Shown here: positions 7,796-64,000 of the stretch, one piece after another
Layout of the letters: each line of letters opens with the position of its first letter
How positions within the stretch are numbered: the first letter of the stretch is position 1
Virus record (IMG/VR): IMGVR_UViG_3300017714_002585
Coordinates: 1 to 64,000 of that record
DNA: 64,000 nt
Reading direction: 5' to 3' (one strand)
Source of the DNA: a virus
Made by a program: the position numbers and the translations under genes
The notes under the pieces: model-generated
Seen by the model: the letters and a program-made list of their open reading frames with translations, nothing else
Database searches by the model: none
What the model was told of the DNA's origin: nothing

Positions 7796-7801
7796 TTTTA
7801 C

Positions 7802-8458: not shown

Positions 8459-8464
8459 CCACTT

Positions 8465-9340: not shown

Positions 9341-9368
9341 GATATGTATGAAGATTATGGAGAAAAGC

Positions 9369-9878: not shown

Positions 9879-9880
9879 TT

Positions 9881-10503: not shown

Positions 10504-10504
10504 T

Positions 10505-11366: not shown

Positions 11367-11749
11367 CAGACAATCCATACTCAGTTTTAAAAATCGATAA
11401 ATATTCTACAACAGATGATATCAGACAGTCTTACAAAAGGCTTATGAAGAAGCATCATCCTGACACTGGTGACGGTGACAGAGAAACATTTGATAAGGTA
11501 CGACTTGCTTATATACAGTTAAAAGATAAAAAACCCGATAATGGTGTTGTAAGGACACTCAGCATAACAGTCCCTATAACAAAGCAAGACTTATCTTTAA
11601 TCTTAGGCACTAGACAAACATTCATGTGTCAGGATGTTCCTTTCGATGTAATGGTTCCTTATGAGACTAGAATTAATGATACTATTGTTGTTAAAAAAAT
11701 ACTAGGTGACTTGTCACTTAAAATAAAATTCAAGGAAGACAATGAGTAA
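11363..11749 (+). CDS. J-domain (DnaJ-like) co-chaperone, short form
   Basis: 128 residues. An N-terminal J domain (residues 1-53: DNPYSVLKIDKYSTTDDIR, HHPDTG with intact HPD) is followed directly by a beta domain like the DnaJ C-terminal substrate-binding domain (VPITKQDLSLILGTR, VPYETRINDTI). The Gly/Phe linker and zinc domain are absent. It should stimulate the host Hsp70 DnaK. It overlaps the ClpA gene by eight bases, so a chaperone and an unfoldase are co-expressed. Confidence 0.82.
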   Translation: MTDNPYSVLKIDKYSTTDDIRQSYKRLMKKHHPDTGDGDRETFDKVRLAYIQLKDKKPDNGVVRTLSITVPITKQDLSLILGTRQTFMCQDVPFDVMVPYETRINDTIVVKKILGDLSLKIKFKEDNE

Positions 11750-13958: not shown

Positions 13959-14646
13959 GAAAGTAGCTAAATTATTTTATGGAACACACCCGTACAAAAT
14001 AACATACAAAAGACTCTACGGATTTCCAGACAAAGACAGTTTGTTTTTCAAAAGACATTTTGAAAGCAATCCAAACGCAATCAATGAATGGTGGTTTGAC
14101 ATGCCATCAACAGATGAAGAAAAATCTGTTAGAGTTAATTGTTATAATTTCTTAAGAAAATTTAAAGACATAAAATTCAATAATGGTGCTCATACACATG
14201 CTTATTTTAAGTATAAATCAGACTACGAAGAAGCTAGAAATAGATATGTAGATTTACACAAATCTTACGCTGAACCACTAGTTGAAAATCTCAAAGAAGT
14301 ATTGGATAGTTTTGACCGTAGAGTAGAACTAAAAAATAATCTATGGTTCAAAACATACAAATATAAGATAGTATTCAAACCTAACAGAGATTTCATTGAC
14401 CATACAGGGCATGATTTATATAAAATGTACGCACATAATACAAATTATAGACTCAACTCTAATATGAAACGATATGACCCTGTCTATTTACGAACACATC
14501 AAAAGAAAAGACATATTCATCACCAATATCAGCTATATGCTATATATTGCCTAGATAAAATCGATGCAGACTTGCTAACTTTCGTTGCAAGTGAGTGTAT
14601 TGGTACCATAACAAAAGCCGTGCTATTAAGTGATTTAGATAAATAA
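13933..14646 (+). CDS. Unknown late protein after ClpA
   Basis: About 230-237 residues. The first start (ATG 13933) lies inside clpA. TTG 13942 and TTG 13948 are alternatives; GGA lies six bases before 13948. The protein is basic and aromatic, with many Tyr, His, Lys and Arg (KKRHIHHQYQLYAIYC near the end). Its order YFKYKSDYEEAR then LWFKTYKYKIVF hints at duplicated motifs. No known domain. A late octamer overlaps its last codons. Confidence 0.55.
   Translation: MIGLSLYTEKVAKLFYGTHPYKITYKRLYGFPDKDSLFFKRHFESNPNAINEWWFDMPSTDEEKSVRVNCYNFLRKFKDIKFNNGAHTHAYFKYKSDYEEARNRYVDLHKSYAEPLVENLKEVLDSFDRRVELKNNLWFKTYKYKIVFKPNRDFIDHTGHDLYKMYAHNTNYRLNSNMKRYDPVYLRTHQKKRHIHHQYQLYAIYCLDKIDADLLTFVASECIGTITKAVLLSDLDK
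14638..14645 (+). promoter_or_regulatory. T4-like late promoter GATAAATA
   Basis: Overlaps the stop of the previous gene and faces the virion genes from 14702. Confidence 0.55.
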
Positions 14647-14701
14647 GTATAGTTATTATTGAACAAACTATACAGGTTAATTACGAAGGGTTGAAGAATA
14701 T

Positions 14702-15073
14702 ATGGCACGTAAAACAGTTACACTTTTACCACAAACAGGTAGTCTTGAATTAGATACTACTGGAAATGCAGTCCCTGGTGATAGCTATTACGGTTATACA
14801 GATGGGATACATACAGTAGCTATTTACGGACAAGCATTATCGGGAAGAGTTAAAATACAAGGAACATTGGCAACTAATCCAACAGAAGATGATTGGTTTG
14901 ACATACTTTTTAGCGGATTACCATATAAAGACTACACAAATTTCACAGGAGTTGAAGGCTTCACATTCGTGGCTAACTTAGTTTATTTAAGAGCATCTTT
15001 AGATAGAACTTCATTGGGTATATCAGATTTTACTCAAGCAGGTTATATAGAGAAAATCTTTTTGAATTACTAA
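14702..15073 (+). CDS. Small virion protein before the fibre genes
   Basis: 123 residues starting MARKTVTLLP. The sequence is beta-rich (VAIYGQALSGRVKIQGTLAT, then TFVANLVYLRASLDRT), typical of a small tail or baseplate jelly-roll protein. It stands first in the fibre operon and 12 bases before the 1485-residue fibre. Structural role inferred from fold pattern and neighbours. Confidence 0.55.
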   Translation: MARKTVTLLPQTGSLELDTTGNAVPGDSYYGYTDGIHTVAIYGQALSGRVKIQGTLATNPTEDDWFDILFSGLPYKDYTNFTGVEGFTFVANLVYLRASLDRTSLGISDFTQAGYIEKIFLNY

Positions 15074-29316: not shown

Positions 29317-29856
29317 ATGTCTGGAATAAAACGAATATATGGTCTTGAAGAAAAGAACTACTACAAGTTCTTTGGTATTGATGAAAAGCAAGGGATAAGT
29401 GTACGTAGTCTTACGACACATTATAAGAAGATTCTAACAATCCTTAAGAAGGATACATCATTTACAGGACAAGACAGATTAGCATTTGCCAACAGGGCTT
29501 TCGAAACCTTGGCAGATCCTATTGCCCGTGCAAGATATTTACTTGAATTAAAAGGTCATGAAAATGATTTCAGAGACGGTGTTAGACCTGATGATATGGT
29601 TTTCATTAATCAACTAAAACATCAACTTGAGGAACAAACTACAAGCGAAGATGTTATCTCTTTTATTGAAGAATTAAAAGACCAAACTCAGTTTATTAAA
29701 GACCAAATAGAACAAAGCATTGATACATATCAGAATTACAAAACTGCTAGTGGATTATTGAATAGATTTTACGAAATATCAGAAATTCACCAAGAAGCAA
29801 AATCGAAACAAGAAAAGATTGAGGAGGGGATAACCTATGTTGTATTTAACAGATAA
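29317..29856 (+). CDS. hscB: HscB-like Fe-S co-chaperone with altered HPD
   Basis: 179 residues. It resembles HscB along its length: a J-like domain (NYYKFFGIDEKQG, then FANRAFETLADPIARARYLL, the HscB signature) and the C-terminal three-helix IscU-binding domain. Bacterial HscB delivers IscU to HscA. The HPD tripeptide that triggers HscA ATPase is replaced: the family's YHPDKF region reads LKKDTS. It may therefore bind IscU without stimulating host HscA, or act as a competitor. First gene of the operon; overlaps the A-type carrier gene. A phage IscU is at 44306. Confidence 0.72.
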   Translation: MSGIKRIYGLEEKNYYKFFGIDEKQGISVRSLTTHYKKILTILKKDTSFTGQDRLAFANRAFETLADPIARARYLLELKGHENDFRDGVRPDDMVFINQLKHQLEEQTTSEDVISFIEELKDQTQFIKDQIEQSIDTYQNYKTASGLLNRFYEISEIHQEAKSKQEKIEEGITYVVFNR

Positions 29857-30166
29857 TTCCACAACAAGAATTAAAAAATGGTTATCTCAGAACCCAGGTA
29901 AAAAAGCAAGATTAAGTATAAAAACAGCCGGGTGTACTGGTTTCATGTATGAAGTTCTACTTGACGAAAAATTCAATATAGAAGATGACTTTGCTATTAA
30001 ATACGATGACTTTGACATTCTCGTAGAACATAAATATTTTCACACTATTGACGGAGCAACATTGGATTATGTTACTGATACTAAGAGTATGAGTTCGCAT
30101 TTTGAACTTGTAAGTAATCCAAATGAAAAAGCACGTTGTGGATGTGGAGAGAGTTTTACGGTATGA
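29837..30166 (+). CDS. iscA: A-type Fe-S carrier (IscA/ErpA family), copy 1
   Basis: 109 residues. The three cluster-binding Cys are present: AGCTGFMYEV and the C-terminal RCGCGESF. These proteins carry or transfer [2Fe-2S]/[4Fe-4S] clusters. The start ATG at 29837 has GAGGAGGGG upstream and lies inside the hscB-like gene. Its stop overlaps the nitroreductase start (ATGA). A second copy at 30882 is only distantly similar. The family call is firm; IscA versus ErpA cannot be separated. Confidence 0.85.
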   Translation: MLYLTDNSTTRIKKWLSQNPGKKARLSIKTAGCTGFMYEVLLDEKFNIEDDFAIKYDDFDILVEHKYFHTIDGATLDYVTDTKSMSSHFELVSNPNEKARCGCGESFTV

Positions 30167-30885
30167 ATGAGAGATTAAACATAGAAAAACACGCAATAAA
30201 TCAAGCACGTAGATGCCAAAGGAACTGGGACCTTTCTAAAGAAGTAGATGAAGAACACATAAATCATTGGATTTATCTAGCAACTACGGCACCATCAAAA
30301 CAAGATGAAAGTTTTTTTGATTTATATGTAGTTACTGATAGAACAAAATTAGATTATCTCTACAAGGAACATTCATGGGGATTTACAATGTTGCCTGGTA
30401 TGAAAGATTGGGTCGGAAGAAACCCACAAATGGGAGCAAACTGTTTGTTTGTTTTCAATAGAAAGATGAATGAAGAAGAAATTCGTAATAACGAAAAAGA
30501 TGGAAGTGTAAGAGATCCAAATGCTTCAAGTAGATGGGACAATGCATTTACATCGATTGGTATAGCAAGTGGCATAGTAGCCTTTAGTGCAAGTATGATG
30601 GGTTATGTTACTGGTTATGGTAAGAATTTTGGTTACATTGAAGAACCAAAACACAGTCAAGATGTATGGGGTGAAGTTCTCGGCATTAAGAAAGAAGATA
30701 ACAACTTGACATATAGTTTGGGAATTGGTTACCCAGATGAAAGCCTTCAATGGTATCAAAGTAAAGATAATAACGAATATCTAACAGGAGGGCCTGTTAA
30801 CTATTCAATCCAGTCTACTGATACTGATTTAAAATATTCAACATATTCTAAATTAGCCAGAGACATAAAGGTGTGGCGAGTATGA
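30163..30885 (+). CDS. Nitroreductase-family flavoprotein
   Basis: 240 residues from ATG 30163, which overlaps the previous TGA; the longer frame from 30136 is inside the carrier gene. Features of the FMN nitroreductase fold: an N-terminal ATTAPSKQDESFFDLYVV (A.tAPS..N...w.f..v pattern) and a central AFTSIGIASGIVAFSASMMG helix. Members reduce nitro compounds, quinones or flavins with NAD(P)H. Being between two Fe-S carriers suggests a redox link. Substrate unknown. It overlaps the next gene by four bases. Confidence 0.7.
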   Translation: MNERLNIEKHAINQARRCQRNWDLSKEVDEEHINHWIYLATTAPSKQDESFFDLYVVTDRTKLDYLYKEHSWGFTMLPGMKDWVGRNPQMGANCLFVFNRKMNEEEIRNNEKDGSVRDPNASSRWDNAFTSIGIASGIVAFSASMMGYVTGYGKNFGYIEEPKHSQDVWGEVLGIKKEDNNLTYSLGIGYPDESLQWYQSKDNNEYLTGGPVNYSIQSTDTDLKYSTYSKLARDIKVWRV

Positions 30886-31205
30886 TTTTTACAGAAAAAG
30901 CGGCTACGAGAGTAGAAGAAATTATAAAAGAACAGGGTGAATCTTCTGGTACGGCATTAAGAGTGTTCGTAGAAGGAGGAGGTTGCCATGGGTTCAGTTA
31001 CGGTTTTGGTTTTGAAAAAGACCTTAAAGATGATGATAGTATCTATGAAACTAATGGCGTGAAGTTAGTAGTAGATAGTATGTCAATCATGTATCTAGCA
31101 GATGCAAAAGTAGATTATATCTCTAGCCTACAAGGCGACAGATTTGTAATCGATAACCCAGGAGCACAAACTACATGTGGATGTGGTTCTAGCTTCTCAG
31201 TATAA
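30882..31205 (+). CDS. A-type Fe-S carrier (ErpA/IscA family), copy 2
   Basis: 107 residues from ATG 30882 (ATGA overlap). The start MIFTEKAATRVEEIIKEQ is the typical family beginning, and the Cys ligands are in GGGCHGFSYGF and TTCGCGSSF. It is closer to the bacterial ErpA/IscA consensus than copy 1. Two A-type carriers in one phage operon suggest different targets, for example the two phage radical SAM enzymes. The family call is firm. Confidence 0.88.
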   Translation: MIFTEKAATRVEEIIKEQGESSGTALRVFVEGGGCHGFSYGFGFEKDLKDDDSIYETNGVKLVVDSMSIMYLADAKVDYISSLQGDRFVIDNPGAQTTCGCGSSFSV

Positions 31206-42745: not shown

Positions 42746-44233
42746 ATGAACATAACATTAATGCTACTATTCATTGTAGCCGTAGGATTTGTAGCCTACA
42801 AGTCTAAAGGGGATAATTACTTTCTGACAACATCAGATAGCAATATGAACCTTGGGCTTTCTTATGGAGCAACGTTAATTTCAACGTCTGCTATCATAGG
42901 CTTTGGAGGTCTAGCTGGTTGGATTGGATTTTCTATTCCACTCACAATGATTATTCCATTTGTTGGTCTTATATATCTTGCGACTGTTTATATAGGTCCA
43001 AAGGTATACAAAGCTAACAAGAAAATTAAAGCCAAAACGTATATTGAAATGATTGGTAAACATTATAACACACCAATGATTTCAAAATTACTAGCACTCA
43101 TTACTGTGGGATTAATTCCATTCTATTGTGTTGCAGTTCTTATAGGTGTCGGTAAATTTATTACTGCATTTACAGGAATTGACTTTACTTTAGCAGTAGT
43201 TGGTTTTAGTATTCTAGTTTTTGGAACTATCGCATACGGTGGAATGAGTTCTGTACTTAAAAATGATATGGTACAAGGTGTCATTGTCATTGCAGGGTCA
43301 CTTGTCGTATTAGCAATCACAGTATTCGTGCATATGCAGGCTCCCGGTTTTTGGGATAACTTATCAGATGCATGGTTACTAGTACCAGAAGATGATGGAT
43401 TGCGTAAACTTAGTTTTACAGGATTTACTAGCTGGCCAGAGTTTTGGTCTAGAGGCTGGTTAATGATTACTACATTATTAGTATTCACTATTCCAGTAGG
43501 ACTTATCACTTTGCCTCAACTACAAACACGTTGGATGATGGCTAAAGATGAAAAGAGTTTTAAAACTATTGCAAATTGGGGTGTTATTATCCCAGGTCTA
43601 GCAATCATAACGTTTATGTTAGCGGCAATCTCTGCCAACTCATATACGTTTGCTACAGAAGGTATGACAGTTGCACAAGCGGCTGGAGGAACTGCTAGTA
43701 TTGTTCCTTATTGGATTAAGACAGGGTTCCCAGCATGGGTTTCTAGTGCTTTATTCTTAACTATTTTGGCGGCGGCGTTTACAACTCTTAATAGTTTGAT
43801 GCATTTGTTATCAACAACAATAGCCAATGATATTATATCTACAAAGACACCAAGTCTTAAAGTAGCATATGGTTCGATGGTTGCAGTTATTTTACTAGCA
43901 CTTTGGATGACAATTCAATTCAATGGGCAAATGGCAATTATTGCACGTGCTACTGCATTATACTTTGGTATTATTGGTGCAAGTATGTTACCACTAGTCA
44001 TTGGAATGGCAAGAGGACTATCTAATGGTCGTCATGCACTTGCAAGTTTTATTGGTGGTGCAGTAACAAGTATCGGTTGGGTACTATTCGTACACTTCAA
44101 AGAATCAAAGTTGTTCACTGGTATCACATATGATATTGGTGTGTATAACTTTGTTGAACCAATCGTTCCTGGTTTAATTGTATCTGGTGTAATCTTTATT
44201 GCACTAACATATATTAGACCAACAATCAAATAA
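42746..44233 (+). CDS. Sodium:solute symporter family (SSS) transporter
   Basis: 495 residues, complete. About 12-13 hydrophobic helices. Family markers: ISTSAIIGFGGLAGWIGFS near the N-terminus, VIGPK-type loop (VYIGPKVYK), AYGGMSSVLKNDMVQGVIV (the G...a...D..Q signature of SSS helix 5-6), and AAFTTLNSLMHLLSTTIAND near helix 8, which holds the Na2-site Ser/Thr. Substrate (sugar, proline, nucleoside or other) cannot be told. SD AAGGAGG. It lies between tRNA-Asp and iscU. An intact secondary transporter is rare in phages. Confidence 0.9.
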   Translation: MNITLMLLFIVAVGFVAYKSKGDNYFLTTSDSNMNLGLSYGATLISTSAIIGFGGLAGWIGFSIPLTMIIPFVGLIYLATVYIGPKVYKANKKIKAKTYIEMIGKHYNTPMISKLLALITVGLIPFYCVAVLIGVGKFITAFTGIDFTLAVVGFSILVFGTIAYGGMSSVLKNDMVQGVIVIAGSLVVLAITVFVHMQAPGFWDNLSDAWLLVPEDDGLRKLSFTGFTSWPEFWSRGWLMITTLLVFTIPVGLITLPQLQTRWMMAKDEKSFKTIANWGVIIPGLAIITFMLAAISANSYTFATEGMTVAQAAGGTASIVPYWIKTGFPAWVSSALFLTILAAAFTTLNSLMHLLSTTIANDIISTKTPSLKVAYGSMVAVILLALWMTIQFNGQMAIIARATALYFGIIGASMLPLVIGMARGLSNGRHALASFIGGAVTSIGWVLFVHFKESKLFTGITYDIGVYNFVEPIVPGLIVSGVIFIALTYIRPTIK

Positions 44234-44305: not shown

Positions 44306-44686
44306 ATGGCATACAGTAAAAAAGTAATGGACCATTATAACAATCCACGTAATGTAGGTCGTTTCGATCCCAGTGTAGATAAAGTTGGAACTGGGATGGT
44401 AGGAGCGCCGGCATGTGGTGACGTAATGCGTTTACAGATACAAGTTGAAGACGGAGTTATAAAAGATGCTAAATTTAAAACTTATGGTTGCGGAAGTGCA
44501 ATAGCAAGTTCAAGTTTAGTAACTGAAATGGTTAAGGGTAAGACATTGAAAGAGGCTCAAGAAATTAAAAACATGGACATAGTAGATGAGTTATCTTTAC
44601 CTCCAGTAAAAATACATTGCAGTGTTTTAGCCGAAGATGCGATTAAATCCGCAATAGAAGATTTTAAAAGAAAGTACCACAGATAA
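44306..44686 (+). CDS. iscU: Fe-S cluster scaffold IscU
   Basis: 126 residues, close to full length. All three cluster Cys are present: GAPACGDVMRL (with the CGD Asp), KTYGCGSAIASSS and LPPVKIHCSVLAEDAI, the last containing the LPPVK HscA-recognition sequence. It is therefore probably functional as a scaffold, using host IscS for sulfur. It has a late promoter, while HscB-like and A-type carriers are under a sigma70 promoter at 29269. Overlaps the next gene by one base. Confidence 0.95.
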   Translation: MAYSKKVMDHYNNPRNVGRFDPSVDKVGTGMVGAPACGDVMRLQIQVEDGVIKDAKFKTYGCGSAIASSSLVTEMVKGKTLKEAQEIKNMDIVDELSLPPVKIHCSVLAEDAIKSAIEDFKRKYHR

Positions 44687-46811: not shown

Positions 46812-46838
46812 GGCCCACTCCGTGTGGGTCTTTTTTTT
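46812..46838 (+). terminator. Rho-independent terminator
   Basis: Stem GGCCCAC / GTGGGTC with a 5-base loop and an eight-T run; ends the small-gene operon. Confidence 0.88.
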
Positions 46839-46846: not shown

Positions 46847-46854
46847 GATAAATA
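46847..46854 (+). promoter_or_regulatory. T4-like late promoter GATAAATA for the cargo operon
   Basis: 30 bases before the first tagged gene (46884). Confidence 0.65.
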
Positions 46855-46883: not shown

Positions 46884-48002
46884 ATGAGACTATACGACTT
46901 ATTTGAGAACGAAAATACTAATCTTGTTGTGATTTATCCAGGAAGATTTCACCCATTTCACATTGGGCACGGGAAAGTATTCAAGTATCTAAAGCAAAAA
47001 TACAAAGGCGCACAGGTGTTTATAGCATCTTCTGATAAAACAGATAATCATAAGTCACCTTTTACATTCCAAGAGAAGAAAAAGATGATGCAATTAGCTG
47101 GAGTAGACCCTAATTCTATCGTTCAGTGTAAAGTTCCTTATGTTGCTACAGAGATTACAGATAGATTTGACCCAGATAAAACAGTAATAGTTTATGCAGT
47201 ATCAGAGAAAGATATGGCAGAAGACCCTAGATTTAACTTTCCAGACGTTGGTATGGCTCTATTAACTAGAGGTGCTAAGAAAGGTCAACCTGCTCACATG
47301 CAGAAATGGCCAGGTATGAAGAATGCAAAACCATTACGTGACCATTCATATATTACTACAGTTCCTACATTTAAGTTTACACTTAGAGGAAAAGCAATCA
47401 ATAGTGCTACACAAATTCGTGACATGATTGCTAAAGCAGACGAGTCACAATTAGAACAGATTTTACAAGATTTATATGGCAATCCTAATATTCCAAAAGA
47501 CGTAATGCAGTTGTTTCAAAACAAATTACAAAGCGGTATTACAAGTGAAAATTGGGAAGAGCCATCATTATACGAAGCGATAATGGAAGCCCAACTTACA
47601 CACGATGTTGAAGAAAAGATTACTAAGAGAACACCAATGGGTGATGTAGTAAAAGATTTCTACAAAAGTGATGCTCCCCAATTTAAGGGTAAGAGCAAAG
47701 CAAAACGTAGACAGATGGCTATAGCGGCCAAACTATCTAAAATGGATGAAAAGGAAGATGATGCAGATTTACTAAAAGGGTTCGACCCAAAAACTGCAAG
47801 AGCATTGGTTCATTTAAAAACTAAATATCCACAAGCAGACAATGTGTTATCAGCCTTACTAGCAGATGTAGAAAAGAACGAAAGAGACGGTGATAAGACC
47901 GACTTCAAACACGAACAAGAATTATCAAAACTAACAAAAGCGATAGAAGTATTGCAAAAAGAAATAAAAGTTTTGAAAAACACACAAGGAAAAATAAAAT
48001 GA
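46884..48002 (+). CDS. Tagged nucleotidylyltransferase-like protein
   Basis: 372 residues. After an N-terminal tag (MRLYDLFENE), residues 13-190 form a nucleotidylyltransferase domain: YPGRFHPFHIGHGKVF contains the HxGH motif, and INSATQIRDMI is like the ISxTxxR motif. Such enzymes make NAD, CDP- or similar cofactors. The C-terminal third (from about 215) is charged and helical, with a coiled coil in the last 40 residues. It lies first in the late operon, so it may be a virion cargo protein rather than a biosynthesis enzyme. SLYEAIMEA at about 230 resembles a T4 prohead-protease site (L-x-E). Domain call firm; cargo role inferred. Confidence 0.78.
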   Translation: MRLYDLFENENTNLVVIYPGRFHPFHIGHGKVFKYLKQKYKGAQVFIASSDKTDNHKSPFTFQEKKKMMQLAGVDPNSIVQCKVPYVATEITDRFDPDKTVIVYAVSEKDMAEDPRFNFPDVGMALLTRGAKKGQPAHMQKWPGMKNAKPLRDHSYITTVPTFKFTLRGKAINSATQIRDMIAKADESQLEQILQDLYGNPNIPKDVMQLFQNKLQSGITSENWEEPSLYEAIMEAQLTHDVEEKITKRTPMGDVVKDFYKSDAPQFKGKSKAKRRQMAIAAKLSKMDEKEDDADLLKGFDPKTARALVHLKTKYPQADNVLSALLADVEKNERDGDKTDFKHEQELSKLTKAIEVLQKEIKVLKNTQGKIK

Positions 48003-49507
48003 GATTAGATGAAGTAGAACAACCGATAACTAATGCTCAGTTAAATGCTTTAGAGAAAGCACTAGACAAATTATTCGCTAGTCTTAATATCGATGTAGAA
48101 TTTACTAGGCATTTTATTGATAGAGCAAATGATGACCGTAATGGTAATCCAATTACAATGTCAGAATTAGTAAACATGTTTAGAAAAGAATACAGACGTT
48201 GGGGCAAACCTATTGCACAAATGGGCCCTGATGCTGAGGCAGTAATGAAAGACTTAGAAAGCGATATCAATATTCCTTTTGTATTGAAGTGGGACAGAGA
48301 CAACGAAGAATTAGACTTAGTTGCTAAAACTGTTATGCGTAAAAAGAATTTTAAAACATCTAATAAAGAATTTCCTGTAGAGTCTAAAACATATAATACT
48401 ATGTCAAATGTAGGCAAAGCAAAGTATGTTGTAAACTTTCATGATGGAGAGAAAACACATAAAGATGGTTCTCGTTTCTATGACATGAGTACTTTTAAGA
48501 ATGCAAAAGACTTAGAAAGTTTTGAGAAACAATTAAAATCAAAAGGGTATGTAAAAGAAACAAAAGTAGAAGAAATGCCAATACCAAAATCTACAATGTA
48601 CGGACTTGTTATTGATGGTGAGTATGTTGCTAAAGGCTCAAAAGAAAAAATGAGAAGTATGCAAAAACAAAAAGGTGGAACAGTTTATAATGCTCCTGGT
48701 AAAAAAGTGGGAGATAAAGAAGGTACTGTTAAAGAAGATGAAACACCTAAACCAATGAGAAGAATTTCTGATGAAGAAAAACTTGCAGTGTTCAATGAAC
48801 TAAAAGCAGGTGATACTGTACATCTTTGGTATGACTCAGCATTTAAACGTGGTGAGAAGTATAAGCCATTTAAAATGGGTAGACGTACTAAGTCAGAGAA
48901 ATATAATCTATCAAAATTTTCAATGCAACAAATCAGTGCAGAAGGTATTCCAGCAGGCGTTAAATTTTTCTTATACAAAAGAGGCGACAAAGTATCTCTA
49001 GCAATGGGTGATATGGCCGCTACTCTAGTTGATATGCAGACAGACTTAGGTGAATACAAAATCAGTAGCAATAAACCTCTATCTAGTTTAGGTGGTTATG
49101 GTAATAAGAAACTTGCTAAGAAACAACCAGCAGTAGGTGATGGTATGTCAGAAGATGAAGTTTCAGAAGATGATTTTTATTTAATCGTAGAATATGAAAA
49201 AGGTAAGCCTGTTAAACAATCTGATCCTTTAAGAGTATTAGATAACTTAGCCGCACGTAATGACAATATGCCTTTCCCAATTAAGTTTAAAGATGGTGGA
49301 GACATTAAAGTTACACCTGAACTTGCAAAAAGATTTACAATGGCGTATCATGATATAGCAAGACCAGAACAAAAAGAAATGATTAAACAATATCTAAGAA
49401 CTAAAGAAGGTTTCATGAAAATTGTAAAACAAATGCAATTAAAAAAGCCTGACTTTGGCAAAAATGCAGGCGCAAATATGGCCAGCTTAGATAGAAATGT
49501 TGCATAA
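47999..49507 (+). CDS. Tagged late protein with shared C-terminal domain, unknown
   Basis: 502 residues. The N-terminus MRLDEVEQP carries the shared tag. Residues 35-130 contain VEFTRHFIDRANDDRNG, a conserved-looking motif of unknown function. Then come a YGLVIDGEYVAKGSKEKMRS module (about 200-250) and, near the C-terminus, a domain (NMPFPIKFKDGGDIKV ... IKQYLRTKEGFMKIV) homologous to part of the 54753 gene product. ATGA overlap with the preceding gene. Head-internal or cargo role inferred from tag, operon and domain sharing. Confidence 0.6.
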   Translation: MRLDEVEQPITNAQLNALEKALDKLFASLNIDVEFTRHFIDRANDDRNGNPITMSELVNMFRKEYRRWGKPIAQMGPDAEAVMKDLESDINIPFVLKWDRDNEELDLVAKTVMRKKNFKTSNKEFPVESKTYNTMSNVGKAKYVVNFHDGEKTHKDGSRFYDMSTFKNAKDLESFEKQLKSKGYVKETKVEEMPIPKSTMYGLVIDGEYVAKGSKEKMRSMQKQKGGTVYNAPGKKVGDKEGTVKEDETPKPMRRISDEEKLAVFNELKAGDTVHLWYDSAFKRGEKYKPFKMGRRTKSEKYNLSKFSMQQISAEGIPAGVKFFLYKRGDKVSLAMGDMAATLVDMQTDLGEYKISSNKPLSSLGGYGNKKLAKKQPAVGDGMSEDEVSEDDFYLIVEYEKGKPVKQSDPLRVLDNLAARNDNMPFPIKFKDGGDIKVTPELAKRFTMAYHDIARPEQKEMIKQYLRTKEGFMKIVKQMQLKKPDFGKNAGANMASLDRNVA

Positions 49508-49522
49508 TTAGGATTGTTTTAA

Positions 49523-52500
49523 ATGCGATTGCACGAATTTAAAATAGAAAAGCCCAAACCAGAAGATACTATGGGTATCACTAGAGACAAAATGCCTCAA
49601 GTGAAATCTACAGATTATGATGCATATAAATCTTATCTTAAAAAGAATGGTGTCACATTAAGACCACAAGTAGTACATGCAAAAGATTTAAAACCAGTAC
49701 AATCAGAATTTTCAGACCAAGGCGTTGAAAGACAATTAAACAAGAATAGAGAAAATGATGGACAGAACCCAAAACCTCTACTAGCAAGTAGTGACGATTG
49801 GATTATAGATGGTCATCATAGATGGTTAGCCGCTTTAAACTCAAATAGAAACGTAAGTATTTTACGTGCAAATGTTGATGTGCATGAACTTTTATCCTTG
49901 ACTTTAAAATTTCCTAGTGTATACTTCAAAGATATCTACACAGAAGAGGAAGAGTCAATGGACGTGATTCAAAAAGCAGAGAAGTTTGCACAAGAGGCAC
50001 ACAAAGACCATCAGAGAAAGTACACTGGTGATCCTTATTATGTCCATTTAGATGAAGTTAGAAACATAGTAAAACAAGCAGGCGGTACTGTAGAACAACA
50101 AGCGGCCGCTTTATTACATGATACAGTTGAAGATACAAGTGTTACACCAGTAGATGTAACAAGAGAATTTGGTCCTAAGATTGCTAAACTAGTTGTTGAA
50201 CTTACTGATGTAAGTAAACCAGAAGACGGTAATAGAAAAACACGTAAAGCAATCGATAGAGATAAACTAGCAGGTGTTAGTGCAGAAGCACAAACAGTTA
50301 AGTATGCAGACTTGATAAGCAATGGCAGAGACATAGGTAAAAATGACCCTAAGTTTGCTAAAGTGTATCATGCTGAAAAGGCAGATTTGCTAAGAGTTAT
50401 GACAAAGGGTAATCAGAATTTAAGAAAACAAGCTATCGCATTATTACCTGATGAATTAAAATCAGTAGTAGGTGAGGCGTTTGGCAGAGCAAACTTTAAC
50501 AAGCAATTAAAAAGAAAAGGCATCGATGTAGATAAGATGCATTCAGATAATGTTAAAGATGCTGAGGCATCTAAGAAAAGAAGTAAAGATGCAGAAGATG
50601 ATTTAAAAGCATTTAGAAAAAAGCATGGCATAAAAGAAGAAACACCTTTCGGTTTACTTTCTCGTAAGATGAGTCATGTAATTAATAAAAAAGCATATAT
50701 GAATATGGCACAGATGATGCATAAGATACTTACAAGAAAGTATAAAGAAACTAATGGTAAGTTAAGACATTCACTTGCCTATTATGCACAAATGTTAGCA
50801 ATGCAAACAAACAACAAAATAAACTATCGTGAACTTGAAAAAGAATACCTTGATATGTTTGGTAACGCAATGTTTGAAAACTCAGTTAAAGAGTCTTTAA
50901 ACGAAGAAGCACTAAATGTTAAATCTATTATTACTCCTGCTATTCGTAAACTAGATAAAGTATTTAAAAAGAATAAACACGAAGTAAGAATTGTTGGTGG
51001 TGCAGTAAGAGATATCGCATTAGGTAAAGAGCCAAAAGATATTGACTTTGCCACAGATGCTACACCAGATGAAATGATTGCTATGCTTGATAAAGAAGGC
51101 ATAAGACATATTCCTACAGGTATAGAACATGGTACAATAACTGCGGTTATTGATGGAGAAGATTTTGAAATAACAACTTTACGTGCAGATACAAATACAG
51201 ATGGTAGACATGCTGATGTAGAATTTGTACGTTCATGGGAAGAAGATGCTAAACGTAGAGATTTAACATATAACGCAATGTCAATGGACATGGACGGTAC
51301 AGTACATGATTACAATGGTGGTATGGACGATTTACAAGATAAAGTAAGTAGGTTCGTAGGGGATCCAGAAGAAAGAATTAAAGAAGATTATTTGCGTATC
51401 TTAAGATACTTTAGATTTCAATCTAAGTTAGATAGTCCAAAGTGGGACGATACTACATTAAATGCAATCAAAGATAATGCAGACGGTATGACAGGTTTAT
51501 CTGTTGAAAGAATTTGGCAAGAAATGGGCAAATTGTTAATGGGTTCAAGTGCCAAAGAAGCACTTGAGTGGATGAACAAGACAGGCGTATCAAGTAAGAT
51601 TGGACTTGAAGGTATCAATCCAGCTAAACTAGGTGAGCCTACAGGACCTATTATTGCACTTGCAAGAATGCTAGACAGTAGTGGTATTGCAAGAGATTGG
51701 AAGATGAGCAATTACGATAGAGAAATGTTTGACTTCTTAATCAAGCACAAAGGTGAAAACATAAATTCAAAACAAGCACAAGATATGATTATCAATGGTG
51801 CATCACAAGACCATTTACTTGCATGGGCAAACATGCATGGTAAGAATGATGTATATGATGCAGTACACGGATTTGAACAACCAGACTTCCCAATCAATGG
51901 TAAAGACTTACTAGCAAGAGGTTATGTAGCTGGTCCTAATCTTGGTAAGATGATTGCTGATTTAAAAGATGAGTGGATGAAATCTAACTATAAACTAAGC
52001 AAAGAACAACTACTAAGCAAAGTTCCAGTTAGAGAAAATGCACTATTCGAAGCGGTTGCTAGATTTATGACAGGACATGGTATTACTTACAAAGGTAAGA
52101 AGTATGATGAAATGAATGTAGAAGTAGTAGGTGTTGATAATGAAAAGAGACAATATCAAGTAATGATATTTGATCCAGAAGAATTACGTGGTGTAAATGT
52201 TATGATGAGTGCAAGATTTATGCACAGAGGCCCATGGGTTAAGACAAAGATACCTGATTACATGGGAGCAATAGAAAAAGGTTTAGATAAAGATAAGACA
52301 GATGAATGGATAGTTCCTGTTGGACAAGCAATAGCACATGGCGCCAGAATGGCGGCACCTCATGTAGCGAAGTTTCTGAGAAATGACCCTGCACCTAAGA
52401 TAGCAGGTGGAGTTACATCAACAGGTGCGGCATATAATTGGGCAAAAAATAAGTACGATAGTTTTAAGAATAAGAAAAGTACAAAGCCAACAACGACAAC

Positions 52501-53173
52501 AGAAGCAGAGACATCTACACCAGATGTATATGTTGATATGGACGGTGTGTTAGTTGATTTCTTCAATGAATGGGCTAGACTAGTTGGCGTTAAGTCATAC
52601 AGAGATATACCAAAGAAAGATATAGGCAAAGCATTAAAGAAGATTGTTAGTACTCCAAACTTCTGGGAAGACTTGCCAACATTAGCAGGTTACAAAGATT
52701 TGCTACAAACAATTAAGGCTGTAAAAGGCAAATACAAAATATTGAGTTCCCCTCTAGCAAATGATCCTAACGTAGATCCTGGCAAAAGAGAGTGGGTGAG
52801 AAAACATTTAAACTTCTTTAAACCAGAGCAAGTTATCATTGACCATAATAAATCAAAATATGCAAAGAAACAAGACGGTAGTCCGAACTTGTTAATTGAT
52901 GATTTTGGTAAGAATGTCGATGCATGGCAATCAGCTGGTGGTATCGCAATTAAACATCACACAACAACTACTGCAAATACAGTACAAGCAATTAAGAAAG
53001 TATTCAGTATAAAAGATGTTAAAGAAGCGGCTGGCGTAGGTAGAGTTATACCTGGCATAAATACCACAGTTGACGTAGGTCCCAACGAAATTACTAAACA
53101 AGCTAAAAAGTTTGGTAATGATGTAGATAAAGATGGGAAACCTAAGAAGCTACTGCGTACAAAGAAAAAATGA
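49523..53173 (+). CDS. Giant fusion: ParB-like + SpoT/Mesh1-like HD + CCA-adding enzyme + HAD nucleotidase
   Basis: 1216 residues. Tag MRLHEFKIE; ParB-like domain at about 20-140 (IIDGHHRWLAAL). A RelA/SpoT-type HD hydrolase follows at about 150-320, with PYYVHL, ALLHDTVEDT and VKYADLISN keeping the metal/His sites; Mesh1/SpoT members cleave ppGpp. A class II CCA-adding/poly(A) polymerase domain spans about 475-850 (VRIVGGAVRD, DIDFATDA, RRDLTYNAMS). A link of about 150 residues is followed by a HAD domain (about 1005-1180, VYVDMDGVLVDFF). Linkers contain VGEAF, SLNEEA and ALFEAV, which resemble prohead-protease L/V-x-E sites. A late promoter and the tag suggest injected cargo. I know of no such four-way fusion. 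Confidence 0.8.
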   Translation: MRLHEFKIEKPKPEDTMGITRDKMPQVKSTDYDAYKSYLKKNGVTLRPQVVHAKDLKPVQSEFSDQGVERQLNKNRENDGQNPKPLLASSDDWIIDGHHRWLAALNSNRNVSILRANVDVHELLSLTLKFPSVYFKDIYTEEEESMDVIQKAEKFAQEAHKDHQRKYTGDPYYVHLDEVRNIVKQAGGTVEQQAAALLHDTVEDTSVTPVDVTREFGPKIAKLVVELTDVSKPEDGNRKTRKAIDRDKLAGVSAEAQTVKYADLISNGRDIGKNDPKFAKVYHAEKADLLRVMTKGNQNLRKQAIALLPDELKSVVGEAFGRANFNKQLKRKGIDVDKMHSDNVKDAEASKKRSKDAEDDLKAFRKKHGIKEETPFGLLSRKMSHVINKKAYMNMAQMMHKILTRKYKETNGKLRHSLAYYAQMLAMQTNNKINYRELEKEYLDMFGNAMFENSVKESLNEEALNVKSIITPAIRKLDKVFKKNKHEVRIVGGAVRDIALGKEPKDIDFATDATPDEMIAMLDKEGIRHIPTGIEHGTITAVIDGEDFEITTLRADTNTDGRHADVEFVRSWEEDAKRRDLTYNAMSMDMDGTVHDYNGGMDDLQDKVSRFVGDPEERIKEDYLRILRYFRFQSKLDSPKWDDTTLNAIKDNADGMTGLSVERIWQEMGKLLMGSSAKEALEWMNKTGVSSKIGLEGINPAKLGEPTGPIIALARMLDSSGIARDWKMSNYDREMFDFLIKHKGENINSKQAQDMIINGASQDHLLAWANMHGKNDVYDAVHGFEQPDFPINGKDLLARGYVAGPNLGKMIADLKDEWMKSNYKLSKEQLLSKVPVRENALFEAVARFMTGHGITYKGKKYDEMNVEVVGVDNEKRQYQVMIFDPEELRGVNVMMSARFMHRGPWVKTKIPDYMGAIEKGLDKDKTDEWIVPVGQAIAHGARMAAPHVAKFLRNDPAPKIAGGVTSTGAAYNWAKNKYDSFKNKKSTKPTTTTEAETSTPDVYVDMDGVLVDFFNEWARLVGVKSYRDIPKKDIGKALKKIVSTPNFWEDLPTLAGYKDLLQTIKAVKGKYKILSSPLANDPNVDPGKREWVRKHLNFFKPEQVIIDHNKSKYAKKQDGSPNLLIDDFGKNVDAWQSAGGIAIKHHTTTTANTVQAIKKVFSIKDVKEAAGVGRVIPGINTTVDVGPNEITKQAKKFGNDVDKDGKPKKLLRTKKK

Positions 53174-54492
53174 ATGAAATAAATCCAAATCTTCATAATT
53201 TATATAATACGATGTGTTTCAAAAACTGGAACGACATTATTATATCCTTACCTCAAAGAACTGTTAAGTGGTGTTGTAAAACTCAATACACTAACAAACA
53301 AATGGAAGAACTTACGTTTGATTACAATACACTTACAGAAGATTTCTTATTCAATCACCCTATACTTCAAAAAAGAAAGTACGACTTAAGTGGAGGTACA
53401 CGTAGTCCTGATTGCGTAGGTTGTTGGCGAACAGAAGATGCTGGTGGCAGTAGTGTAAGAACTGAATATAATAAGAATTTTGATTATCGTTTAAAAAGAC
53501 AATATCAAAAAGCAGGTAATCACCCTAATTTAGCAAAACAGTTCCATAGAGATATGATGGAACATGATAACTTTAAATTCATTGAAATAGAACTAACAAA
53601 CAAATGTAATATGGCATGTGTTTATTGTTGGGGAGGTTCTAGTACTCGTTGGCAGAAAGAATTAGGTCAAAGATTTCCAGATACAGATGATGCAATGTTT
53701 GATAAGACACTAGAGATATTAAACGGATATTGGGATAAGAAACTTGTAGGTCAAGGTCATGTTAATTTTAGTTTGCTAGGTGGTGAGCCATTCTTTACTG
53801 ACCATATGTTTAGATTTATTGAAAACTTTATGATGAATATTAACGACACACATAGGGAAGGACAGATAGTAGTAATTACAGTTACAACTAATTTAAACTT
53901 TCCTAAAAAGAAATTTGATAAATTTATTGAACTAGTAAATCGAACACCAAATATACGTTATGAAATGCAACTATCGGGTGAAGCATTACATAGACAGAGT
54001 GAGTTAATTAGGTGGGGATTAGACTTTGCTAAATGGGACGAGAATTTAGATTTATTCTTTGAGAAATCAAAAGAAATAGATAATTTAGTATTGGGATTTG
54101 GTTGTGCCCATAACAGTTTAAGTCTTCCTTATTTTAAAGACTTCTTAGTATATCTTAATGACAAGATAAACAAATATGATTATGATAAGACAATATTAAT
54201 GCATCAAAATTGGGTAGATAATCCAGAGCATTTAGCGATAGATTCATTAGAGCCTCATCATGCAGATACAGTACAAGAACAAATAGAGTATTTTAAGAAT
54301 ATGTCTGGTAATTTTTATAAGAAACAAAGATATATTGGATTAATGAATACAATGAAAGACTTAGTAGCGAGTGAAGTACCAGAAAAGACTAAGTTACTTG
54401 CTCAAAAACAGTTTAAAATGCTAGAGGATAGAAGAAAAATCTCATATTCAGAGCATTTCCCTCACTTCAATGAACTAGTAAATTTAAAATAA
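53170..54492 (+). CDS. Radical SAM enzyme 2
   Basis: 440 residues, ATGA overlap with the fusion gene. Cluster motif CNMACVYC (about residue 148) in IEIELTNKCNMACVYCWGG; SAM-binding GGE is in LLGGEPFFTD. The N-terminal domain has extra Cys (VKWCCKTQY and CVGCWRTED), the same layout as the 6443 enzyme, to which it is a distant paralogue. It lacks the N-terminal tag of its neighbours, so it may modify them rather than be packaged. Substrate unknown. Confidence 0.85.
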   Translation: MNEINPNLHNLYNTMCFKNWNDIIISLPQRTVKWCCKTQYTNKQMEELTFDYNTLTEDFLFNHPILQKRKYDLSGGTRSPDCVGCWRTEDAGGSSVRTEYNKNFDYRLKRQYQKAGNHPNLAKQFHRDMMEHDNFKFIEIELTNKCNMACVYCWGGSSTRWQKELGQRFPDTDDAMFDKTLEILNGYWDKKLVGQGHVNFSLLGGEPFFTDHMFRFIENFMMNINDTHREGQIVVITVTTNLNFPKKKFDKFIELVNRTPNIRYEMQLSGEALHRQSELIRWGLDFAKWDENLDLFFEKSKEIDNLVLGFGCAHNSLSLPYFKDFLVYLNDKINKYDYDKTILMHQNWVDNPEHLAIDSLEPHHADTVQEQIEYFKNMSGNFYKKQRYIGLMNTMKDLVASEVPEKTKLLAQKQFKMLEDRRKISYSEHFPHFNELVNLK

Positions 54493-54503: not shown

Positions 54504-54511
54504 GATAAATA
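54504..54511 (+). promoter_or_regulatory. T4-like late promoter GATAAATA next to ATG
   Basis: The octamer ends at 54511; a start six bases on is the A of ATG 54517, so the mRNA may be leaderless. Confidence 0.6.
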
Positions 54512-54516: not shown

Positions 54517-54753
54517 ATGAAAATAAACGAATTATTAGGTGAAAATTTTAGTGGTAGTTTCGCTAGTGTGGCATTTCCAATGACACCGGGAACGAAGGCT
54601 AAAGATGCCAGAAAGGCAGTAGATCCTTTTGGGTATCTAACACCTAAGAATAAAAAGAAACAAGAGAACTATAAGATGGGTTTTTCTGCCGATGTAGGTA
54701 ACTTAGTTTATAATAAGCCTGTCAAGAGTCCAATGATTAAGAGAGCAAAATAA
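54517..54753 (+). CDS. Tagged small late protein
   Basis: 78 residues from ATG 54517; a TTG at 54502 is excluded because it overlaps the promoter. N-terminus MKINELLGEN (tag), then a Ser/Gly segment and a basic tail. No SD is visible between the late promoter and the ATG, consistent with a leaderless or fully read-through mRNA. Its stop overlaps the next ATG (TAATG). Probably a head or cargo protein; family unknown. Confidence 0.55.
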   Translation: MKINELLGENFSGSFASVAFPMTPGTKAKDARKAVDPFGYLTPKNKKKQENYKMGFSADVGNLVYNKPVKSPMIKRAK

Positions 54754-56633
54754 TGAAACTTACACAATTAACCGAGAGTTTTGTAATCAATAACGATGAG
54801 TTTGAAGATTACTTAAACCGTGGTACGGAACAACTCAAAACAGAATTAGAAGGTGGCAAGAATGCCCGTGATGCAATACATGATATTGCACAGACATTTT
54901 CAAGCCAACATAATAAATCATACGAAGCATATGAACGTATGTCAGATAGTCTAGCGGCTAGAATGCACACACTAGATTTAGGTGGTGGTGAAAGTCTTCC
55001 TGCAATGGCTCCTGAAGTTCCAGCAATGGATCCTGAAGCACCAAGTGATATGGACATGTCTCCAGAACAACCAGATATGGATGTGGCTCCAGAACAACCA
55101 GGTATGGATATGGAAACACCAGATGCAGAAGAAATGCCAAACGATGAAGAAATGGCAGACTATGATGCGGTAATGGCGAATAAGCCTGATGATACAGAAG
55201 AAAGTATCGAAGAATCTTCAACTGCTCTTAAAAATAAAGAAGATTATATGGCTAAACGTAAAGCATTACAAGATATTCAGATGGACCCTGACACAAGTAA
55301 AAACGAAGAACTTAAAAAAGAATTAATGCGTAGAAAAGCAGAACTTGAAGACCAAGCAAAAGCAATGGGTATTAAAGAAGGCACTATGATTGGTGGCTTA
55401 ATGAAATATGATGGTCAACCAGAAGAAGAATATTCTGAGGCTGTTGCAAAATATAATGAGTTTATGTCTAAACCTCGTCCAGCGAGTGAAGAAACAAGTG
55501 ACATGATTATGGGATTTGTTTTTGATGATGAACTATTAGATGATATGTACGTTGCACAAGACGAAGGTAACAAAGATGTTAGACCTATGGTTGCTAAGAG
55601 AATGGAAGAACTTGGTCATGCAAATGAATCAGTTTCAGAAGCAGATGAAAAACCATACATTTGTGTACATGCTGATAAAGGCAAACACGAATGTCATGCG
55701 ACTTCTTCATACGGAGCGGCTAAAAAGGCGGCTGAACATTGGGGAATGAAATCAACTGCTGGTATCGATGCAAATTTGGCAGTAGAAGAATCAGCAATGA
55801 TTGAAGAAGGTGCAATGGATACTCTAAAGAAAATTGTAGCAGACAAACAAAACATGCCTGTTAAATTTGATGATGGTCAGATGAAAGTAGATTTATTTAC
55901 TGCATCGGCTGTTACACAAGTTTATGATAAAGTAAACGATGCTAACAGAGAAAAAATTGACAACATGCTAAAAACTAAAGCTGGTATGCTTAAGATTGCA
56001 GACTTTGCCTTAGGTTCTATGAAAGAAGGCAAACTAGATACTGCTATGAACGTAGCAAAGAAAGTAGGTCAAGTAGCTGGTAAAGTTAAACAAGGCGCTG
56101 ACATGGCTAAGAAAGGTATTGATACTGCAAAAGCTATAGGTAAATCTGGTCCTGCTCAAGCGGCTGGTGGAATTATCGGTAAAGTAGCAAAAGCCGTTGG
56201 TGCTGGTATACAAAATAAGGCATCAGATTTAACTGGTGGACAAATCAAAAAGTCTAAAGTAAAAGTATTCAATGCAGACGATGTAGCAGACAGAATTGTT
56301 AACAATTCGGCTAGAATTGCAATGTCAGAGTACAATGAATTCTACAAAGAACTAGATAAAGCGGCTAAGCAAGGTAAGAAAGCTGGTGACTCTATCTCAG
56401 TTGGTGGTAAGAACATCAAACTAAAATCTAATCCAAAGAAAATGTCAGACCTAACTGACTCAGACTTTGTAAAGATTGATGCACTTGCACAGAAAGTAAA
56501 TGAATTGGCTCCATTAGCCCCATTAGCGGGTGCGGCGGCAAGAGCCATTGGTGGAAAAGTTATCAAAAAAGCGATTAAGGCAAGTCCAGGTGCAAAGTTT
56601 GTCAGTGCAATGACAGGCGGAAATAAAGAATAA
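54753..56633 (+). CDS. Tagged late protein with acidic Pro/Met repeats, head-internal candidate
   Basis: 626 residues. N-terminal tag MKLTQLTESF; an acidic, Pro/Met-rich repeat (about residues 85-130: units of PEQPDMDVAPEQPGMDME type) that is likely disordered; a region with ICVHADKGKHECHATSSYG at about 302; then a domain (NMPVKFDDGQMKVDLF ... MLKTKAGMLKIA) shared with the 47999 gene; and Ala/Lys/Gly-rich helices typical of membrane-active or DNA-packing segments (about 440-510). Last gene of the late operon. Acidic repeats and an LxE-rich sequence resemble prohead core proteins; this is inferred. Confidence 0.6.
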   Translation: MKLTQLTESFVINNDEFEDYLNRGTEQLKTELEGGKNARDAIHDIAQTFSSQHNKSYEAYERMSDSLAARMHTLDLGGGESLPAMAPEVPAMDPEAPSDMDMSPEQPDMDVAPEQPGMDMETPDAEEMPNDEEMADYDAVMANKPDDTEESIEESSTALKNKEDYMAKRKALQDIQMDPDTSKNEELKKELMRRKAELEDQAKAMGIKEGTMIGGLMKYDGQPEEEYSEAVAKYNEFMSKPRPASEETSDMIMGFVFDDELLDDMYVAQDEGNKDVRPMVAKRMEELGHANESVSEADEKPYICVHADKGKHECHATSSYGAAKKAAEHWGMKSTAGIDANLAVEESAMIEEGAMDTLKKIVADKQNMPVKFDDGQMKVDLFTASAVTQVYDKVNDANREKIDNMLKTKAGMLKIADFALGSMKEGKLDTAMNVAKKVGQVAGKVKQGADMAKKGIDTAKAIGKSGPAQAAGGIIGKVAKAVGAGIQNKASDLTGGQIKKSKVKVFNADDVADRIVNNSARIAMSEYNEFYKELDKAAKQGKKAGDSISVGGKNIKLKSNPKKMSDLTDSDFVKIDALAQKVNELAPLAPLAGAAARAIGGKVIKKAIKASPGAKFVSAMTGGNKE

Positions 56634-63470: not shown

Positions 63471-64000
63471 ATGTTAGAAAAACTTTTTGGATTATCTAAA
63501 AAGAATACGACCGTCAGAACGGAAGTTATGGCCGGTCTTGCGACATTCCTTACTATGGCATATATCACAGTCGTAAACCCTGCGATTTTGTCAACCGAAG
63601 GTACTGGAATGGATTTTGGTGCAGTATTCACCGCTACAATTATTGCGGCGGTAGTGGGTACCTTAATCATGGGACTATGGGCTAATTGGCCTGTAGCACT
63701 TGCTCCAGGAATGGGACTGAATGCCTTCTTTGCATTCGGTGTTATTTTTGGTATGGGTTACACATATCAACAAGCATTAGCGGCTGTGTTTATCGCAGGT
63801 GTTGTGTTTCTTGGTTTGAGTATGACACCAGCACGAAGGTATATTATTAATAGTATCCCGAAAGGCATGAAGCTAGGTATAGGAGCAGGTATTGGTCTGT
63901 TCTTAGCTATTATCGGTCTTAAGAATGCAGGTGTCGTTGTTGATAATCCAGCAACACTAGTTGGACTAGGAGACATTTCTAGTTGGCCAGTATTACTTGC
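63471..64000 (+). CDS. NCS2/AzgA-like purine permease, truncated by window edge
   Basis: At least 176 residues, open to the right edge. Start MLEKLFGLSKKNTTVRTEVMAGLATFLTMAYI is typical of AzgA-type (guanine/hypoxanthine) permeases; PAILSTEGTGMDFGAVFTAT and ALAPGMGLNAFF carry the family's conserved loop. SD AAGGAGG. Complete members have about 430 residues and 12-14 helices. Found after the transglycosylase, it may supply guanine precursors. The family call is strong; substrate specificity is inferred. Confidence 0.85.
   Translation, partial: MLEKLFGLSKKNTTVRTEVMAGLATFLTMAYITVVNPAILSTEGTGMDFGAVFTATIIAAVVGTLIMGLWANWPVALAPGMGLNAFFAFGVIFGMGYTYQQALAAVFIAGVVFLGLSMTPARRYIINSIPKGMKLGIGAGIGLFLAIIGLKNAGVVVDNPATLVGLGDISSWPVLL

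Follow-up and report, generated by a model that had tools for sequence, protein, structure and literature searches.

A single open reading frame (ORF) in the viral DNA analysed here (the window: 64,000 nucleotides, positions 1 to 64,000 of the 75,738-base virus record IMGVR_UViG_3300017714_002585) joins a ParB-like module, an HD hydrolase, a class II CCA-adding enzyme and a HAD 5'-nucleotidase in one 1216-residue product, hereafter the fusion. In this protein and its viral relatives, most internal module starts are preceded by an [LIVM]xE sequence resembling the sites cut by the T4 prohead protease, and related genes open with a short tag resembling the start of T4 internal proteins. On the strength of these sequence features, we propose that the fusion may be a head-cargo polyprotein that is packaged, cut, injected and used in tRNA repair, a reading whose probability we put slightly below one half (roughly 0.47).

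The fusion ORF occupies 49523-53173 on the plus strand, begins with ATG and is uninterrupted by stops. Pfam families scoring above their curated cut-offs are HD_4 (residues 153-237), PolyA_pol (489-608), PolyA_pol_RNAbd (642-689) and NT5C (1002-1145). The multi-module PHROG family phrog_2859 spans residues 12-204, and ParB-like PHROGs are found at the equivalent place in relatives L006 and L050. Besides the four named domains, the protein contains helical "mid", "link" and C-terminal peptide modules, arranged as follows:

49568..49936, plus strand: ParB-like module, residues 16-138, with GHHR at 97-100 (PHROG, tblastn, motif reading)
49970..50428, plus strand: HD hydrolase of the Mesh1 / small alarmone hydrolase type, residues 150-302 (Pfam, alignment, fold)
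50648..50878, plus strand: helical "mid" module, residues 376-452 (relatives, AlphaFold)
50948..52048, plus strand: class II CCA-adding enzyme, residues 476-842 (Pfam, PHROG, TRNT1 alignment, motifs)
52052..52402, plus strand: "link" region, residues 844-960, a conserved FMTGH module to about residue 910 followed by low-confidence sequence
52523..52972, plus strand: HAD 5'-deoxyribonucleotidase of the NT5C type, residues 1001-1150 (Pfam, fold, motifs)
53033..53170, plus strand: C-terminal peptide module (GVGR..GINTTVDVGPNE) (relatives)

The HD segment aligns with Lmo0812, MESH1 and Rel proteins. In a 20-row alignment, nine tracked positions (including R165, H175, H199, D200, E203, D204, D263 and N267), which we take to have metal-binding or catalytic roles, are invariant in all 16 rows that contain the domain. 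An AlphaFold model of residues 1-480 (mean predicted local distance difference test score, pLDDT, 75.8; about 90 across the HD domain) matches human MESH1 (3nr1) with a template modelling (TM) score of 0.82 on the target, so that structure prediction, named in the initial annotation as a check on this domain, agrees with the assignment; bacterial small alarmone hydrolases (SAHs) are also among the fold matches. The CCA segment can be aligned over its full length with human TRNT1 (367 residues, E 4e-77) and carries the class II motifs GGAVRD (492), DID (506), RRD (578) and EDYLR (621), to which we assign the roles presumed for GGxVRD, DxD, RRD and EDxxR. For the HAD segment, the sequence match in the PDB search is weak and the top fold match is human deoxyribonucleotidase 2i7d; its motifs are DMDGV, from residue 1005, and IDD at 1125. 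The ParB-like part matches 448 phage records in tblastn, and DarB-like, PLxRFG or internal virion polymerase annotations occur among the 40 matches listed. GHHR is retained in all five members of the module; Pfam ParBc_2 falls below cut-off in four of the five, nothing scores above cut-off, and the fold match is weak (5k5d, E 4.6e-3). The four domains and their order, as well as the intact HD and nucleotidyltransferase motifs, are thus as first annotated, the former by Pfam, PHROG, tblastn and fold, the latter by alignment rows and motif positions. The label "four enzymes" was too strong because the ParB-like part may lack catalysis.

A first scan of viral sequences yielded 60 loci encoding relatives, nine of them with the ParB-HD-CCA-HAD order in one frame. 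A further contig, 3300037991, adds a 1425-residue version, so that the search for the same domain order found it in ten viral contigs, at six lengths in all. Because the order recurs in one frame elsewhere, an assembly or frameshift artefact was ruled out. A 100% identical copy of the fusion lies in a 342,607-base contig (G001, the same as L001; L063-L080). The single-sequence viral scans returned mainly close relatives, and the relatives entering the counts below are not independent of one another; a scan of genome_contigs found no relative, and the "mid" module had zero matches in the phages collection.

The modules are shuffled between relatives. CCA is a lone gene in other phages, adjoining what we take to be a sheath-like gene, and HAD is a lone gene in others; CCA and HAD are fused in L047 and L153, and in L050 ParB, CCA and HAD are fused and HD is a separate gene. 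A 1270-residue protein of L112 strings together a C-terminal-type peptide, HD, p47N, CCA, mid and DUF6321-like modules. Relatives of the C-terminal peptide are thus found at the N-terminus of this protein, and also at the C-terminus of a 397-residue protein of L148/L149. In Melnitz phages, a HAD-like gene starting MKSIVEVTSINEE and a gene with the p47N module are separate.

The company kept by the HD domain bears on what the fusion might do. The domain is 44.0% identical over 156 residues to a protein of Salmonella phage SSU5, presumably the hydrolase that removes toxSAS marks. The toxSAS enzymes pyrophosphorylate the 3'-CCA end of tRNA, and the SSU5 hydrolase counters FaRel2 by taking this modification off the tRNA (PMC11559606). 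The same hydrolase was co-expressed when making CapRel, since it neutralises toxSAS toxins (PMC9712102), and CCA enzymes of jumbo phages have been noted as tRNA repair (PMC7824862). As an SSU5-type hydrolase acts on tRNA 3'-CCA ends, the HD domain and the CCA enzyme would share a substrate and might form a pre-made repair set for tRNA 3' ends. It is possible that the HD domain hydrolyses ppGpp as well. Indeed, the initial annotation had such a set reverse the stringent response, and the complete HD motifs and the fold match to MESH1 and bacterial SAHs suit packaged enzymes that serve mainly to hydrolyse (p)ppGpp, with CCA addition as general tRNA repair. We consider that account unlikely, since it leaves the pairing with a CCA enzyme unexplained and the activity documented for the SSU5 phage hydrolase is on tRNA 3' ends, the two activities not being exclusive. 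The motifs and fold therefore fit the earlier suggestion, but stringent-response reversal is not the best-supported role, the phage relative of the HD domain presumably acting on tRNA 3'-CCA.

The cargo proposal draws chiefly on the module junctions. With module starts placed by BLAST to the window cores, [LIVM]xE occurs within 20 residues upstream of 36 of 44 unique internal module starts (42 of 51 unmerged), against an expectation of 22.2 of 44 on shuffling those residues and of 8.4 at randomly chosen positions within these proteins. No other residue is in like excess to Glu, the next being Ala (16 versus 11.5). By module, sites precede DUF6321 in 5/5 cases, link in 7/7, mid in 4/4, the C-terminal peptide in 6/6, HAD in 8/9, p47N in 1/1, CCA in 4/6 and HD in 1/6. 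Examples (the slash marking the putative cut) are LNE/EAL, LRE/EAL, INE/EAL and MGE/DVE before CCA; LFE/DNT, LKE/DLD, MTE/AEE and VFE/GPE before HAD; IKE/ETP, VNE/ETP and INE/EGP before mid; and VKE/AAG, VSE/AGG and VNE/TGG before the C-terminal peptide. Strict [LI]xE[ASGDEN] sites number 24 in linkers versus 12.7 after shuffling, and 17 in cores versus 26.4. Earlier counts with hand-made patterns, 42/45 and 34/37 (13.3 expected for the latter), flatter the rule; those patterns were picked with the sequences already known and failed to catch several ParB-HD, CCA and mid junctions, and the sequences had been seen before either kind of count was made. The prohead-protease-like linker sites of the initial annotation thus hold for most junctions among the relatives and fail at ParB-HD, where one of six has a site. 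In the fusion itself, the candidate cleavage sites are these:

50468..50476, plus strand: VGE318/A (sequence, AlphaFold)
50630..50638, plus strand: IKE372/E, before the "mid" module (sequence, AlphaFold, junction count)
50885..50905, plus strand: VKE457/S and LNE461/E, before the CCA module (sequence, AlphaFold, junction count)
52043..52051, plus strand: LFE843/A (sequence, junction count)
53018..53026, plus strand: VKE1168/A (sequence, AlphaFold, junction count)

E318, E372, E461 and E1168 lie within or border stretches with pLDDT below 50. The model of residues 843-1216 (mean pLDDT 59.3) is of low confidence outside the HAD domain and, as E843 opens the modelled segment, its pLDDT is uninformative on the LFE843 site. 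The T4 protease gp21 cleaves after L/I-x-E and the phiKZ protease after S/A-x-E (PMC9026906); that of SPN3US cleaves after A-x-E (PMC10052503).

Packaging need not entail cutting. For polyvalent proteins that carry a DdrB-like ParB domain, packaging and injection have been proposed, and the virion RNA polymerase of N4 enters the particle without being processed (PMC5512222). The fusion could likewise be an injected but uncut polyvalent protein, its [LIVM]xE sequences being relics of module exchange or of formerly separate tagged genes, and the VKE457/LNE461 sites do hold the same place as the LHE/E of separate CCA genes that start MRINEVILHEE, as a fusion relic would. This alternative appears rather improbable in view of the excess at P1 being confined to Glu, the P1 residue of gp21 (PMC9026906), and of the site being kept while the surrounding linkers vary in length and content.

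Genes related to single modules carry N-terminal tags. Among the first scan's loci, a tag stands at or near the start of all 39 CCA-first ORFs with a readable start, 38 being of the MRINEVI type (MRINEVILHEE-like) and that of L018 reading MRINEII. All eight HAD-first ORFs are tagged as well (MLI[RE]EII, MLIREIISE-like); in some ORFs, the listed start codon lies further upstream of the tag. These tags resemble MKTYQEFIAEA, the start of T4 ipII/ipIII, and ten residues are enough for IPIII targeting (PMC9026906). The pattern M[KR][LIVF]x[ENDQ][LIVF], which was picked after seeing the cluster and also from L151 and L153, opens 8 of 383 genes in G001 (1.1 expected, P 2e-5) and 6 of 266 in G005 (0.6 expected, P 4.5e-5); conditioned on M[KR] starts, P is 9e-4 in G001, 0.01 in G005 and 0.38 in G003. 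Similar tags open genes of L151 and L153 whose products are unrelated, among them a peptidoglycan-binding protein and an LPD23 protein. Of 11 HD genes that stand alone and whose start can be read, one of them the separate HD gene in L050, none is tagged. The start of the fusion is ambiguous:

49523..49549, plus strand: fusion N-terminus MRLHEFKIE, tag-like, yet with homology to the point inside an L151 protein where the ParB module begins

The codons differ between tags, and an RNA-level cause of these common start sequences was therefore discarded on visual inspection.

Several tagged loci were recorded on their own account. In L151, the genes of a tagged 1497-residue protein (9722-14215) and of the peptidoglycan-binding protein (2056-2823) belong to the same apparent cargo operon. 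L153 has four tagged genes within 8.3 kb (6607-14877), for a 457-residue proline-/lysine-rich protein, a CCA-HAD protein, the LPD23 protein, which by eye is metallopeptidase-like, and a 1085-residue proline-rich protein. In Prochlorococcus phage P-TIM68 (L101, 3526-6546), a 1007-residue protein with a DUF6321-like module adjoins a tagged (MKSFTSFFTEA) cytidyltransferase and looks like a further multi-module cargo protein.

The fusion gene lies in an apparent cargo operon with other tagged genes, preceded by a late-promoter-like element:

46812..46838, plus strand: terminator-like hairpin and T-run ahead of the operon (by eye, unscored)
46847..46854, plus strand: GATAAATA, late-promoter-like element 29 nucleotides before the operon's first gene (8-mer count)
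46884..48002, plus strand: cytidylyltransferase-like protein with a DUF6321-like module, tag MRLYDLFE (CTP_transf_like, E 1.2e-9)
47999..49507, plus strand: 502-residue protein, tag MRLDEVE, with an N-terminal p47N module that recurs in phiM12 and Melnitz phages
49523..53173, plus strand: the fusion, putative polyprotein, 1216 residues (ORF, Pfam, PHROG, relatives)
54517..54753, plus strand: small protein, tag MKINELLGE, with its own GATAAATA at 54504-54511 (tag pattern, 8-mer)
54753..56633, plus strand: 626-residue protein, tag MKLTQLTES, function unassigned (ORF, Pfam, PHROG, tag pattern)

From gene overlap and spacing, 46884-53173 may form one transcript. The T4 late promoter is TATAAATA, which GATAAATA resembles. 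Within 60 nucleotides upstream of genes, GATAAATA is the commonest 8-mer in G001 (35/383, against 0/303 in-gene windows) and joint first in G003 (12/75 against 0/66), where a copy lies 5 nucleotides before the CCA-HAD gene; in G005 it is weaker (9/266 against 0/210). The enrichment is confined to upstream regions, ATAAATA not being over-represented across the whole window (21 found, 35.4 expected). The element favours late rather than early expression of the operon, the latter being disfavoured by its presence ahead of the first gene. An ordinary cytoplasmic multi-enzyme that repairs phage and host tRNAs and manages nucleotides, with nothing packaged, is favoured by the six tRNA genes in the window, by the lack of tags on stand-alone HD genes and by the many phage records in which a CCA-adding enzyme or an HD hydrolase has a gene of its own (PMC7824862), but it has no need of the junction site rule and is opposed by the late-promoter-like element and by the tags of CCA-first and HAD-first genes, and of the accounts weighed here it is the one we find least probable.

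A protease suited to the cutting is encoded in G001. A prohead protease of family S77 scores 92 bits, above the family cut-off, at 192821-193255, within the gene of the gp21 homologue (192761-193390); S77 proteases were present in two of the eight records searched, the remaining records possibly being fragments. Genes which, from T4 gene order and from sequence, we take to be portal-, scaffold- and capsid-like adjoin it, and together with the protease they indicate that the phage is T4-like. The capsid-like neighbour contains a matching LNE/S. In a side observation, the scaffold-like protein of G001 (193405-194523) was seen to end in LKKLAGLN, and a similar RLMKLAGL occurs in a sister-phage protein (L047, 17832-18860); the stretch is possibly a core-binding signal.

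Virion proteomes of cyanophage cousins were compared with the tags. For S-CREM2, 52 virion proteins have been reported (PMC10665884). Among its 219 translated coding sequences, eight have M[KR]...[LIVMF]xE near the start and five of these are among the 52 (P 0.02): a S-adenosylmethionine (SAM) hydrolase, a kinase, a cytidylyltransferase, ORF13 and ORF17, the match of ORF17 being maybe due to chance. The virion NMNAT of S-SCSM1 starts MKSFLQFLKEA (PMC9602691). Both papers allow that such proteins might be carry-over from infected cells (PMC10665884, PMC9602691). Separately, ORF12 of S-CREM2 (L154, 7704-10313), a Cas9-like virion protein, has a tag-like RFASFMAEA from residue 18, a position that suggests a later true start or a longer tag.

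From these features we infer the following course. The frame would be made late in infection of a T4-like marine phage and carried into the prohead, where a gp21-type protease would cut after (L/I/V)-x-E in the linkers between modules. As the ParB-HD and link-HAD junctions of the window are without a site, about five products would be expected: ParB-HD, mid, CCA, link-HAD and the C-terminal peptide. These pieces would enter the next host together with the DNA. Once inside, the HD hydrolase may clear pyrophosphate from tRNA 3'-CCA ends, alarmones, or both; CCA ends that have been damaged may be rebuilt by the CCA-adding enzyme; and nucleotides or DNA may be the targets of the nucleotidase and of the ParB-like module. 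Being delivered ready-made, the enzymes would work even if a defence had stopped translation.

Several results weigh against the cargo-polyprotein reading. [LIVM]xE also occurs inside domain cores (57 per 8163 residues, versus 77 per 3616 linker residues), and the shuffle expectation is itself high because the linkers are Glu-rich. The ParB-HD junction has no [LIVM]xE in five of six unique contexts, so that HD would remain joined to ParB; within 20 residues, the site is also missing from the window's link-HAD junction and from two of six CCA junctions (L050 and L112, the site of L112 lying just further upstream). The tag pattern opens only 1 of 75 genes in G003, where its enrichment is not significant. 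MRLHEFKIEKP, at the start of the fusion, is homologous to an internal ParB stretch of L151 and therefore may not be a tag, and the untagged stand-alone HD genes mean that HD need not serve as cargo in every phage. The trigger of CapRel is newly made capsid protein (PMC9712102), so that a counter delivered by injection does not obviously suit this defence. In the S-SCSM1 stretch (72 coding sequences), one of eight virion proteins is tagged (P 0.30, no association), and two tagged proteins are not annotated as virion proteins; moreover, the virion data as a whole come from cyanophage cousins, not from this phage or a close relative.

A wider proposal is more tentative, and we would call it possible but doubtful: that T4-like marine phages carry plug-in head cargo, made of enzyme cassettes most of which open with an (L/I/V)-x-E site, encoded as polyproteins or as single tagged genes, and delivering a tRNA de-pyrophosphorylase and a CCA-adding enzyme that are active under a translation block. 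If this were true, the head-maturation protease would also process a multi-enzyme weapon, in the manner of RNA-virus polyprotein processing, and in uncultured phages the site rule would allow head cargo to be read directly from the sequence. It would also be clear why an alarmone-type hydrolase is paired with a CCA enzyme, both acting on the tRNA 3' end attacked by toxSAS, and delivery of pre-made enzymes would bypass a translation block, unlike newly made counter-defence proteins.

Other observations concern the neighbourhood and the window at large. Within the cargo operon, the fusion gene is overlapped at its end by an untagged radical-SAM gene (53170-54492). GATAAATA may be usable as a late-promoter-like signal for timing genes in these phages. 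By eye, the window genes at 11742-13958, 29837-31205, 42746-44233, 44306-44686 and 63471-64000 are host-like; we take them to be, respectively, ClpB-like, iron-sulfur assembly-like, symporter-like, IscU-like and purine-permease-like.

Polyvalent proteins, T4 internal proteins, phage alarmone hydrolases and phage CCA enzymes are each already known; in the open-access literature, as far as its text was accessible, no description of this domain combination or of the site rule was found. The polyvalent proteins of Iyer et al. 2017 (PMC5512222) share with the fusion several unrelated effector domains per frame, a ParB-like module, shuffled architectures and predicted delivery with the DNA, and LPD23 occurs in a gene of relative L153. 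RelA/SpoT synthetase domains are described among them (PMC5512222); neither "CCA" nor "HD phosphohydrolase" is a term used in the text of that paper. Polyvalent proteins often embed a peptidase, whereas in the fusion Pfam and PHROG gave no peptidase family and prohead-protease-type sites are present instead. With T4 IPI-III and Alt (PMC9026906), the common features are a short N-terminal tag, L/I-x-E sites, an S77 protease in the genome and enzyme cargo; here, by contrast, the cargo is multi-domain, the sites lie between domains and the fusion's own tag is ambiguous. The HD domain has the catalytic residues and fold of the SSU5 small alarmone hydrolase and MESH1, along with its 44% identity to the SSU5 protein, but is fused to a CCA enzyme and possibly virion-borne. 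The CCA module shares full-length alignment and motifs with TRNT1 and phage tRNA nucleotidyltransferases; unlike known class II CCA enzymes, the versions described here have an N-terminal tag or a cleavage-like site. Finally, the cytidylyltransferase of S-CREM2 and the NMNAT of S-SCSM1 are of the same kind as the product of the 46884 gene, tagged and virion-detected, although distant from it in sequence (E 5e-5 and 0.015 in single comparisons).

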